Source of the DNA: Chloroflexota bacterium
GTDB lineage: Bacteria; Chloroflexota; JAHJIN01
Direction: 5' to 3'
Assembly: GCA_018823415.1 (NCBI GenBank)
Contig: JAHJIN010000454.1
Location: 1 to 64,000 of the forward strand
Length of the DNA stretch: 64,000 nucleotides
In this document: positions 12,015-59,400 of the stretch, piece after piece
Position numbering within the stretch: the first letter of the stretch is position 1
How the letters are laid out: every line of letters starts with the position of its first letter
Made by a program: the position numbers and the translations under genes
The notes under the pieces: generated by a model
What the model saw: the letters and a program-made list of their open reading frames with translations, nothing else
The model's database searches: none
What the model was told of the DNA's origin: nothing

Positions 12015-12962
12015 ATGCCAGCCATCAGTGTCGTGATTCTCAACTGGAACGGTAGAGAGCTTTTGCTGACCTGTTTGGCTTCGCTCGAAAAACAAACCTT
12101 TGGCGACTGGGAATTGATCGTGGTAGACAACGCGTCGGCCGATGGTTCACCCGAGTTGGTGCGCGAGCGATTTCCCAGGGCCCGGTTGGTGCTGCTGGAT
12201 CGCAACTATGGTTTTTGCGCTGGCAACAACCGGGGGACCGCGACAGCACAAGGACGCTATATCGTTTTCCTCAACAACGATATTGAAGCCGATCCTGGTT
12301 TTCTACAAGCCTTATTTGACGCGATCGAAGCCCACCCAGACGTGGGTTTCTGTGCCACTCGCATGCTGAGGTTCCGCGATCGATCGCGGGTGGACAGTTG
12401 TGGCATCGGCTTGCACATCGTGGGGAAAGGATATCAAATCGGCGCGGGCAAGATAAACGGAGCACAGTTTGACGAGATGCGCTACGTGTTTGGCGCCGCC
12501 GGTGGCGCTGCGCTTTACCGCCGGACCATGTTGGATGAGATTGGCTTGTTTGATGAAGATTTTTTCAGTCATGTCGAAGATGTCGATCTCGCCTGGCGCG
12601 CGCAACTGGCTGGCTATCACTGCTTGTATGTGCCTGGCGCCATTGTGTATCATGTAGGGGGAGCGACCAGTCGACGCATCCCCGAACAAGTCCTGTATCG
12701 CATCCAACGTAACATCACCTGGGCGTATCTCAAAAACATGCCCACCAGTTTGTTAATCGGTTTGGGGCCACTGCACGTTTTGTACTGTTGCTATTGGCTG
12801 TTGCGTGCGGCAAGCCGGGGACAGGGGGGGGTGGTGTTAAAAGCCAAGACGGATGCGATACGAGCGAGGTCATCTATCAAGGCCAAACGCCGCACGATTC
12901 AAAACAAGCGCAAACTCTCGACCAGGGCACTGTTAAAGCTTATGGGCTGGCATAGAGTATGA
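12015..12962 (+). CDS. Family 2 glycosyltransferase (rhamnosyltransferase-like)
   Basis: GT2 enzyme of 315 aa. Motifs are SVVILNWNGRELL at the N-terminus, VVDNASADGSPELV, LLDRNYGFCAGNNRG, and FLNNDIEADPGFL holding the DxD-equivalent. The segment FFSHVEDVDLAWRAQLAG is the acceptor-site signature common to dTDP-rhamnosyl and related transferases. Specificity cannot be assigned. It overlaps the next gene by four bases (ATGA), implying coupled translation. Confidence 0.83.
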   Translation: MPAISVVILNWNGRELLLTCLASLEKQTFGDWELIVVDNASADGSPELVRERFPRARLVLLDRNYGFCAGNNRGTATAQGRYIVFLNNDIEADPGFLQALFDAIEAHPDVGFCATRMLRFRDRSRVDSCGIGLHIVGKGYQIGAGKINGAQFDEMRYVFGAAGGAALYRRTMLDEIGLFDEDFFSHVEDVDLAWRAQLAGYHCLYVPGAIVYHVGGATSRRIPEQVLYRIQRNITWAYLKNMPTSLLIGLGPLHVLYCCYWLLRAASRGQGGVVLKAKTDAIRARSSIKAKRRTIQNKRKLSTRALLKLMGWHRV

Positions 12963-39812: not shown

Positions 39813-39825
39813 CGAGGTATATCAT

Positions 39826-39903
39826 GTTCGAGGCGGACCAGGCACAGCCCCCTGCGGGCAGTCCGCCGCACAGAACGGGGACTGTGGTCCCCCGTGAACA
39901 CAT
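39826..39903 (+). repeat. Paired-hairpin leader element, copy A (upstream of cysK)
   Basis: Begins GTTCGAGGCGGACC and ends GTGAACA. Hairpin 1 is GGCGGAC/GTCCGCC with a 22-nt loop; hairpin 2 is ACGGGGAC/GTCCCCCGT around TGTG. The ends are near-complementary (ATCATGTTC and GAACACATGAT). It is followed by ACGAGGAGAAAA and the cysK ATG. A related copy in the same orientation relative to its gene lies at 59341-59400. Confidence 0.8.
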
Positions 39904-39922
39904 GATACGAGGAGAAAACCCC

Positions 39923-40825
39923 ATGTCGATACTGGATCGCATTGGCAACACCCCCCTGGTCCGCATCCAGCGGCTCTGCCCGCGCCCGGACGTGCACATC
40001 TGGGCCAAGGTGGAGATGTTCAACCCCGGCGGCAGTGTCAAGGACCGCATTGCCCTCAACATGATCGAGGCGGCCGAGCGGGACGGCCTGCTCCAGCCGG
40101 GTGGCACCATCGTCGAGCCTACCAGCGGGAACACCGGGATCGGGCTGGCGCTGGTGGGCGCGGTCAAGGGCTATCACGTGATCCTGACCATGCCGGAGAG
40201 CATGAGTGTCGAGCGGCGCAAACTCTTGCACGGCTATGGCGCCGAGCTGGTGCTGGTGCCGGCCGTCGGGGGGATGCGCGGGGCCATCGCGCAGGCCGAG
40301 GAATTGGTGGCCGAACACGGCTATTTCATGCCAGACCAGTTCCGCAACCCGGCCAATCCCCAGGCACACCGCCAGCACACTGGCCCCGAGATCCTGGCCC
40401 AGTGCCCGGACCCCATCGACTATTTCGTGGCCGGCATTGGCACCGGCGGCACGATCACAGGAGTGTCCGAGGCACTGCGCGCGTTTTTTCCCCACCTGCG
40501 CGTGATCGGCGTCGAGCCGACCGGCTCGCCGGTGCTCTCTGGCGGCCAAGCCGGCCCCCACAAGATCCAGGGCATTGGCGCCGGCTTTGTGCCCGACGTG
40601 CTCAACACCGACCTGCTCGACGAGGTGATCCCCACCACCAACGACGAGGCGTTCGAGATGGCCCGGCGGCTGGCGCGCGAGGAAGGGCTGCTGGTGGGCA
40701 TTTCCAGTGGCGCGGCGATGGCCGCAGCCCTCAAGGTGGCAGAGCGCGTCGAGGGGCCGACCACCATTGTCACCGTGCTGCCGGACACCGGGGAGCGGTA
40801 CCTATCGACCGCGTTGTTTGCATGA
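39923..40825 (+). CDS. cysK: Cysteine synthase (O-acetylserine sulfhydrylase)
   Basis: PLP enzyme of 300 aa converting O-acetylserine and sulfide to cysteine. The Schiff-base lysine is about K40 in NPGGSVKDRIA. The substrate loop PTSGNTGIGLA, the phosphate-binding GIGTGGTITG and the C-terminal GISSGAA are intact. Length and motifs are those of CysK/CysM rather than cystathionine beta-synthase (no CBS domains). The ATG at 39923 follows a GAGGAG site. The gene directly downstream starts 29 bp after the stop, so the pathway is an operon with cysE. Confidence 0.91.
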   Translation: MSILDRIGNTPLVRIQRLCPRPDVHIWAKVEMFNPGGSVKDRIALNMIEAAERDGLLQPGGTIVEPTSGNTGIGLALVGAVKGYHVILTMPESMSVERRKLLHGYGAELVLVPAVGGMRGAIAQAEELVAEHGYFMPDQFRNPANPQAHRQHTGPEILAQCPDPIDYFVAGIGTGGTITGVSEALRAFFPHLRVIGVEPTGSPVLSGGQAGPHKIQGIGAGFVPDVLNTDLLDEVIPTTNDEAFEMARRLAREEGLLVGISSGAAMAAALKVAERVEGPTTIVTVLPDTGERYLSTALFA

Positions 40826-41248: not shown

Positions 41249-41285
41249 CTCGCCCAACAACTGAATAGCACGGGATGAGTACCAA

Positions 41286-41398
41286 TTCATCAAGAGAGGT
41301 GGAGGGACCGGCCCTGTGAAACCTCGGCAACCAGGTCGCGCAACAAGCGCGCCATGGTGCCAATTCCGGCAGACCCGCAGTGGGTTCTGGAAGATGAG
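41286..41398 (+). ncRNA. SAM-I (S-box) riboswitch
   Basis: Conserved S-box core: TCATCAAGAGAGGTGGAGGG at 41288-41307, then GACCGGCCC, TGTGAAACC, CGGCAACC, GGTGCCAATTCC and GGCAGA, closed by GATGA at the 3' side that pairs with the TCATC of P1. This aptamer binds S-adenosylmethionine, and in the common arrangement ligand binding favours the downstream terminator. The terminator at 41418 follows at the expected distance. It should shut off the metB-lysC-asd operon when SAM is plentiful. Confidence 0.95.
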
Positions 41399-41417
41399 TG
41401 CATTGCCAAGCTACGCG

Positions 41418-41455: not shown

Positions 41456-41605
41456 GCTGCCTCTCCCCGTAAATAAGCTTGTGGGGTGAATAGCCCCACG
41501 CGTCTATTTTCGTTCTCGCGGGGTACGCTAGCGCGGGGGAGCCTCCTCTCTGATGATGCCCACCACATCACATGGTCGCCAGACGACCGGAGAGGAGACT
41601 TTTTT

Positions 41606-42784
41606 ATGCCCAACTTTTCGACACAGGCCGTGCACGCCGGCGAGGAACGTCCCAAACCCTACGGTGCACTGACCACCCCCATCGTCCAGACCTCCACATA
41701 TACCTTTGCCGACACGGCCGAGATCCTGGAGTTCATGCGCCACAAGGCCGCCGGCGACCCGCATGTGCGCGACGAGTATGGGCGCTACAGCAACCCCACA
41801 CAGAGTGCCGCCGAGATCAAGATCGCGGCCCTGGAAGGCGGCGAGCGCGCCGTGCTGTTTGCCAGCGGGATGAGCGCCATCACCACCTCGCTGCTGGCCC
41901 TGCTGTCCAGCGGCGACCACCTGATCATGGTCAGCGGCGTCTACCGCCGCACCAGCGAGTTCGCCCGTAGCTACCTGCCGCGCTGGGGGATCGAGACGAC
42001 CTTTGTGCCTATCGATGACCCGGCCGCGCTGGCGGCCGCCATCCGACCCACCACCCGCCTGATCCTGACCGAAACACCCACCAACCCCTACCTGCGGGTG
42101 ATGGACCTGGCGCGCCTGGTCGAGATCGCCGGCCCGCACGGCATCCTCACCGCTATCGACAGCACCTTTGCCACGCCTATCAACCTGTGCCCTCTGGCCC
42201 ACGGCCTCGACCTGGTGATCCACAGCGCCACCAAGTACCTGGGCGGCCACAACGACCTGCTGGCCGGGGCCGTCGTCGGCGCCGGCGAGATCATGGACCG
42301 GATCCTGGCGGCCCGGGGCGTGCTGGGCGGCGTAAGCAGCCCCCACGACGCCTACCTGCTGCTGCGCGGCCTCAAGACCCTCGACCTGCGCGTCCGGCGC
42401 CAGAACGAGACCGGGTTGCGCGTGGCCCGGTTCCTGGAAGGGCACCCGGCCATCCAGCGCGTCTACTACCCCGGCCTGCCCAGCCACCCGGACCACGAAA
42501 TCGCCCGGCGGCAGATGACCGGTTTTGGCGGCGTGGTCAGCTTTGAGGTCGCCGGCGACCTGGACCGGACGAGCCGCTTTATGGATCGCCTGCGCCTGCC
42601 CTACATCGGTCCCACGCTGGGCGGCGTAGAGAGCATCGCCCAGCAGCAAGCCATTTTCATCTCGCTCGACGCCGAGGAGCGCCGGGAGGCCGGCATCGCC
42701 GACAACCTGGTGCGCTATGCGCTGGGCATCGAAGACGCCGACGACATCATCGCCGACCTGGACCAGGCATTGGCGGGGATATAG
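41606..42784 (+). CDS. metB: Cystathionine gamma-synthase-like PLP enzyme
   Basis: Cys/Met-metabolism PLP enzyme of 392 aa. Schiff-base lysine about K210 in HSATKYLGGHND; EYGRYSNPTQ and ETPTNPYLRV are family motifs. The insertion MRHKAAGDPHVRDEYGRY resembles the cystathionine gamma-synthase group. It would join cysteine to an activated homoserine on the way to methionine. The riboswitch upstream supports a methionine role, but O-acetylhomoserine sulfhydrylase or a gamma-lyase cannot be excluded. The ATG at 41606 has GAGGAG upstream. Confidence 0.8.
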   Translation: MPNFSTQAVHAGEERPKPYGALTTPIVQTSTYTFADTAEILEFMRHKAAGDPHVRDEYGRYSNPTQSAAEIKIAALEGGERAVLFASGMSAITTSLLALLSSGDHLIMVSGVYRRTSEFARSYLPRWGIETTFVPIDDPAALAAAIRPTTRLILTETPTNPYLRVMDLARLVEIAGPHGILTAIDSTFATPINLCPLAHGLDLVIHSATKYLGGHNDLLAGAVVGAGEIMDRILAARGVLGGVSSPHDAYLLLRGLKTLDLRVRRQNETGLRVARFLEGHPAIQRVYYPGLPSHPDHEIARRQMTGFGGVVSFEVAGDLDRTSRFMDRLRLPYIGPTLGGVESIAQQQAIFISLDAEERREAGIADNLVRYALGIEDADDIIADLDQALAGI

Positions 42785-59324: not shown

Positions 59325-59340
59325 GGTTTCTCCTCGTCTA

Positions 59341-59400
59341 CTATGTTCACGGAGGACCACAGTCCCCGTGCCATGCGGCGGACTATGGTCCGCCTCGAAC
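59341..59400 (-). repeat. Paired-hairpin leader element, copy B (upstream of the esterase)
   Basis: Read leftward it starts GTTCGAGGCGGACC and ends GTGAACATAG. Hairpin 1 is GGCGGAC/GTCCGCC with a four-base loop; hairpin 2 is ACGGGGAC/GTCCTCCGT around TGTG. Copy A at 39826-39903 has the same parts with a longer first loop. The esterase's ACGAGGAGAAA ribosome site follows directly, as with cysK. Confidence 0.8.

Follow-up and report, generated by a model that had tools for sequence, protein, structure and literature searches.

REPINs and BIMEs are multicopy, non-coding repeats that lie mostly outside genes and are built of two short hairpins with a conserved foot, set head to head, although single units also occur; inverted doublets are the REPIN arrangement (PMC3116915). 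A tetranucleotide beside a short hairpin also characterizes the GTAG- and CGTC-tagged REPs (PMC3733652) and the class 3 REP-like sequences with a CnGA foot (PMC6006769). GTAG repeats have been reported in Chloroflexi, and some REPs adjoin Y1 transposase genes (PMC3733652, PMC6006769). In REP and IS200/IS605 systems, the hairpin in single-stranded DNA and a guide tetranucleotide are read by the enzyme (PMC6006769). REPs are reported to lie for the most part close to the 3′ ends of the genes before them, with a variable gap to the gene that follows (PMC3733652). Mycobacterial MIRUs are described as seemingly mobile interspersed repeats at translation starts, with downstream translation kept (Supply et al. 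1997, as cited in PMC12548453); they insert at start codons, with an internal ORF coupled to the next gene at −4 nt (PMC12548453).

The element described here, present in two copies (A and B) in the window (the whole 64,000-nt stretch of Chloroflexota DNA that was analysed), shares the REPIN features listed above, as well as the tetranucleotide beside a short hairpin. It differs from REPINs and BIMEs in its GYTC foot, its GGAC-TGTG-GTCC core, an outer stem whose sequence is free to vary and its position just 5′ of Shine–Dalgarno sequences (SDs) in its own genome, where no dedicated RAYT was found. The feet, GAAC or GAGC (read GTTC or GCTC), do not fit the GTAG, GTGG, CGTC or CnGA tags (PMC3733652, PMC6006769), and the distance that is fixed, unlike in published REPs, is that to the SD of the next gene. 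The closest parallel for this placement is the MIRU as portrayed in the account cited, likewise an interspersed repeat behind which the gene is still translated; here insertion is upstream of the SD, starts lie 14–31 nt beyond the element and no conserved internal ORF was seen. Judged by these analogies, the family unites REP anatomy with MIRU placement logic and is a full match to neither. We take it for a new form of miniature mobile DNA of the REPIN type, unusual in where it sits.

Copies A and B at their loci

Both copies were found where an earlier note on this DNA had placed them (A, 39826–39899, plus strand; B, 59345–59400, minus strand), with the same start GTTCGAGGCGGACC, two hairpins in the same order and the same end GTGAACA that it had described. 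Their alignment spans both hairpins, the first hairpin of A having a longer apical loop than that of B. The note's statement that ACGAGGAGAAA follows GTGAACA directly needs correction, as six unshared nucleotides intervene (CATGAT in A, TAGTAG in B), followed by ACGAGGAGAAA and then ATG (A, 39923; B, 59324, minus strand). The near-complementarity of the ends ATCATGTTC and GAACACATGAT is seen in A and not in B. The genes behind the copies are indeed unrelated, encoding a cysK-type PALP enzyme (A) and an alpha/beta hydrolase (B; match to Hydrolase_4, E 4.8e-28). Copy A lies between a serine-acetyltransferase-like gene on one side and the cysK-type gene on the other, and its whole element has GCGAG to its left and GAGGAG to its right. 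The features at the two loci are as follows.

39817..39908, +, entire element of copy A, short arms included (GTATATCATGTTC...GAACACATGATAC), from the sequence and own-genome matches
39826..39869, +, copy A left unit: foot GTTC and hairpin with long apical loop (GGACCAGGCACAGCCCCCTGCGGGCAGTCC); match of unit model R1 at 39826-39869(-), E 0.002
39875..39899, +, right unit of copy A: foot GAAC and hairpin ACGG-GGAC-TGTG-GTCC-CCCGT, in which one base is unpaired; R1 match at 39875-39899(+), E 3e-4
39900..39908, +, copy A tail ACATGATAC, from foot to SD; its length of 9 nt is shared by most group I copies
39909..39914, +, SD GAGGAG of the cysK-type gene, 9 nt from the copy A foot, from the sequence
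39923..40825, +, cysK-type PLP enzyme gene (PALP, E 5.8e-83)
59345..59400, −, copy B, foot to foot (GTTCGAGGCGGACCATAGTCCGCC...GGGGACTGTGGTCCTCCGTGAAC); R1 matches at 59375-59400(+), E 3e-6, and 59345-59369(-), E 4e-4
59336..59344, −, copy B tail ATAGTAGAC, from foot to SD
59330..59335, −, SD GAGGAG of the hydrolase gene (gene start 59324, minus strand)

Minimum-energy folding gave one long hairpin for each copy (A, z −2.4; B, z −4.5), since each unit can pair not only with itself but also with its partner.

Two further observations concern the copy A neighbourhood. An in-frame ATG at 39824, with GAGG 6 nt upstream, opens a frame (39824–40825, plus strand) that reads through copy A into cysK, so that an N-terminally extended CysK would be possible. 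Just downstream of cysK, a SAM riboswitch (RF00162, 82.8 bits; 41284–41400, plus strand) lies upstream of a Cys/Met metabolism PLP enzyme gene (41486–42784).

Unit structure and distribution of the family

The unit is a 22-nt hairpin, N5-GGAC-TGTG-GTCC-N5′, with the tetranucleotide foot GARC (GYTC on the 5′ side). The full element comprises two units head to head (GYTC-hairpin...hairpin-GARC), and single units also occur. Own-genome BLAST matches display the doublet plan as GTTC-[stem]-GGACCACAGTCC-[stem′]-spacer-[stem]-GGACTGTGGTCC-[stem′]-GAAC, with the long apical loop CAGGCACAGCCCCCTGCGGGCA in some copies. The element has no coding capacity, nor was any internal ORF seen to be conserved; copy A and a few other copies are open frames continuous with the downstream gene.

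Outer stems vary (GAGGC, CCGCT, GGCGC, GCGAC, GTGAT and others) and stay paired. In 35 distinct units, whose rows had been pre-filtered for pairing, 72 double-sided changes were counted against 25 in shuffles, and no slid structure came near. A scan of exact cores without a pairing filter is the fairer covariation test, since those 35 rows were already selected for pairing: 80 of 100 distinct cores are followed, at a distance of exactly 5 nt, by GARC (GAAC or GAGC), and at least four of the five outer pairs are present in 64 of these 80, with 31 different outer stems. Because unit model R1 was built from an alignment with one base too many in five rows, A and B included, the covariation claim rests on a second alignment and on the filter-free scan. 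Outer stems thus covary strongly, and core, loop and foot are fixed. Complementarity of the ends beyond the feet is not general in the own-genome family (shuffle p = 0.19), and terminal inverted repeats beyond the feet were therefore rejected as a general feature.

The long apical loop GGCACAGCCCCCTGCGGG recurs elsewhere in the genome as the apex of palindromes with other stems (loci L023–L030; in L025, L026 and L028 at 1501–1521 each). These palindromes perhaps form a second REP-like family.

Further copies, for which the earlier note had suggested a covariance-model search, are present in the genome: a covariance model of the unit returned 44 matches at E ≤ 1, and A and B, used as BLAST queries, had tens of partial matches there. 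Curation left approximately 31 dispersed elements, about 16 of them doublets, a number drawn from pattern, BLAST and model searches that may be incomplete. Chance, which the note had thought unlikely to account for the shared orientation relative to translation, is ruled out for the likeness of A and B: there are 31 copies, and the tail-plus-SD pattern has nine matches (seven at elements) against none for a reversed control. Two near-identical loci (L007 and L033, on C221 and C409) each have the element before a nitrile-hydratase-like leader peptide gene; they are possibly paralogues, or else variants from different strains in this MAG, which is slightly contaminated (7.6%).

Beyond the own genome, a degenerate two-core exact-pattern scan of GTDB r220 yielded 17 stretches. 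Four Anaerolineae MAGs (E26_bin7, MAG-37, Zod_Metabat.614 and SuakinDeep_MAG45_1) account for 16. The remaining exact match, in Actinomadura (L110), was set aside as chance, as the GARC foot is absent. Feet are GAGC in E26_bin7 and MAG-37, and GAAC in the own genome and Zod; doublets also occur in the E26_bin7, Zod and Suakin MAGs. Those of E26_bin7 are embedded in elements of MITE-like form, whose terminal inverted repeats are clear (CTCAGTAGATCAC...GTGATCTACTGAG; for example CTCAGTAGATCACGATTT), with several different arm types around one core. Nucleotide BLAST of 60 same-phylum relatives gave no convincing copy. In a covariance-model search of 400 phylum genomes, the own genome alone reached E ≤ 1e-5; weaker carriers may be missed, because the prefilter passed just 19 candidates per genome to scoring. 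Among viral contigs, the single match (L114, an IMG/VR contig, 12744–12790) was rejected as a different palindrome array, composed of GGTGGGACTGTGGTCCCACC palindromes with a similar core and without the GARC foot.

Placement at Shine–Dalgarno sequences and flanking repeats

In 21 of the 31 elements, an SD and the start codon of a frame of at least 90 codons lie downstream in one and the same orientation, the start being 14–31 nt from the right foot. This bears out the position 5′ of start codons more strongly than could be known from two copies. At random positions, any start was found within 60 nt in 4.3% of cases and a start 17–33 nt away in 1.3%. The SD begins 5–20 nt from the right foot, and exactly 9 nt from it in nine cases, and TAC-RAGGAG recurs in group I copies. 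In every doublet with distinguishable units and a clear gene (approximately 12 independent doublets in two subgroups), the type of unit facing the SD is constant. Most elements lie between co-directional genes, the upstream gene ending shortly before the element. The downstream genes are unrelated and share no regulon (PALP, alpha/beta hydrolase, prephenate dehydrogenase, HlyD, GNAT, FtsQ, SIMPL, NHase-like leader, response regulator and DUF1232). Whether copies are always 5′ of starts, a question raised in the earlier note, has a split answer: the placement predominates in the own genome and is not shared by the units of E26_bin7 (4 of 34 upstream of starts) or MAG-37 (0 of 15), against a background of 6–8%.

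At several loci, the SD-containing sequence beside the start is repeated to the left of the element: CACGGAGGAG (C470), GGAGGAA (C308 and C586), AGGGAAG (C622), GGGGTAG-like (C174) and AAGGAGACTC/AAGGAGATTC (C559). Flank matches within a locus exceed those between loci (shuffle p = 0.0011; 20 elements, tested after the repeats had been noticed). Several copies, group I ones included, are without flank repeats. Because the repeats were noticed before the test and other copies do not have them, SD duplication is graded by subgroup: it is probable in one subgroup and unproven for the whole family.

The flank repeats suggest insertion at SDs. Variation of the SD from one locus to another, together with its repetition inside a locus, speaks for a pre-existing SD as the insertion site. 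Spacing of exactly 9 nt and a constant orientation are more readily explained by machinery that prefers such sites, or by an SD that the element itself brings. The siting may reflect either insertion that prefers SDs or the survival, between closely spaced genes, of such insertions only.

Proposed movement and competing explanations

The element family is real and dispersed, and it is probably mobile, as the earlier note had proposed; it lacks coding capacity, lies beside unrelated host genes and is dispersed in five genomes, in one of which (E26_bin7) its copies have terminal inverted repeats of a MITE-like kind. The likely identity, in our judgement, is a non-autonomous, REPIN-like miniature mobile repeat. 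An HUH/Y1, RAYT-like enzyme specific for single strands would recognize foot and hairpin in trans and move the doublet. An enzyme that reads a single-stranded DNA hairpin and a guide tetranucleotide would be expected to leave just this pattern, in which core, loop and foot are invariant and the stem varies but stays paired. Insertions would settle at the SDs of closely spaced genes, with SD duplication in several copies; we propose that the downstream gene keeps its ribosome-binding site, so that the insertion is tolerated. An effect on mRNA decay or translational coupling, if any, would be secondary. Target duplications are not an expected product of the Y1 enzymes that move classical REPINs, and the flanking repeats therefore fit the REPIN model awkwardly.

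None of the five Y1_Tnp genes in the own genome is flanked by element units, and a Y1_Tnp search of the carriers MAG-37 and Zod_Metabat.614 gave no match, with the caveat that MAGs are incomplete. In E26_bin7, one Y1_Tnp gene (L255) adjoins a row of variant GCTC-hairpin units (best E 1.5e-8), which may be a chance neighbourhood, given approximately 80 units and ten Y1 genes in that MAG. Separately, one own-genome Y1 locus (L168) has two copies of another palindrome (ACCCTCCCGCAGGTTT...AACCTGCGGGAGGGT; 1414–1447 and 2049–2082) and, going by its sequence, looks like a separate REPtron.

Two other kinds of mobile DNA would account for part of these data. A classical MITE moved by a DDE transposase, with 7–10-bp target duplications and the hairpin pair as mere interior, would explain the locus-specific flank repeats of 7–10 bp and the terminal inverted repeats in E26_bin7. 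We consider it unlikely, as own-genome arms outside the feet are not generally inverted repeats, in E26_bin7 the MITE-like arms differ around an unchanged core and no full-length IS with these ends was present among the own-genome BLAST matches. Alternatively, tail and RAGGAG could be part of the element, a mobile cassette that gives its SD to the next gene. The shared tail-plus-SD pattern, matched nine times with none in the control, and the recurrence of TAC-RAGGAG in group I speak for such a cassette, which is nonetheless improbable: SDs vary between copies (GAGGAG, GGGAGG, AAGGAG, GGAGGAA and GGGGTAG), several loci repeat their own SD on the left flank of that locus only, and copies in other genomes have no such end. 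Of the earlier suggestion of a mobile repeat carrying a ribosome site, the mobile part therefore stands and the carrying part is weakened, as the flank repeats favour insertion at the SD.

The note's other suggestion, a cis-regulatory RNA, would have the hairpin pair, as part of a leader or of mRNA between cistrons, set translation of the gene behind it, either through a bound protein or by acting on the neighbouring SD. The fixed SD spacing of 9–13 nt in a single orientation, the promoter-like TATAAT/TATACT sequences shortly before single-hairpin copies in C318 and C638, and stems kept by compensatory changes all agree with it, although compensatory change is equally expected under single-strand DNA recognition. 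With nothing in common among the downstream genes, no match at the element in Rfam 15 at gathering thresholds (the SAM riboswitch was the window's only match) and units in E26_bin7 and MAG-37 that for the most part do not precede starts, a regulatory leader RNA is very unlikely as an account of the family, which does not need it, and is possible for individual copies.

Returning to the REPIN-like reading, a bolder version of it, doubtful but worth stating, is that in this new GYTC-tag element the insertion machinery, and not selection alone, picks SDs in one orientation and duplicates them, so that the element would spread inside operons without silencing the next gene. In compact bacterial genomes, small mobile repeats must avoid breaking genes, and a fixed distance to the ribosome-binding site would show one way of doing so. 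GYTC adds a further tag class, distinct from those of the two published REP super-families, from a mostly uncultured bacterial class, and the question of the moving enzyme becomes testable.
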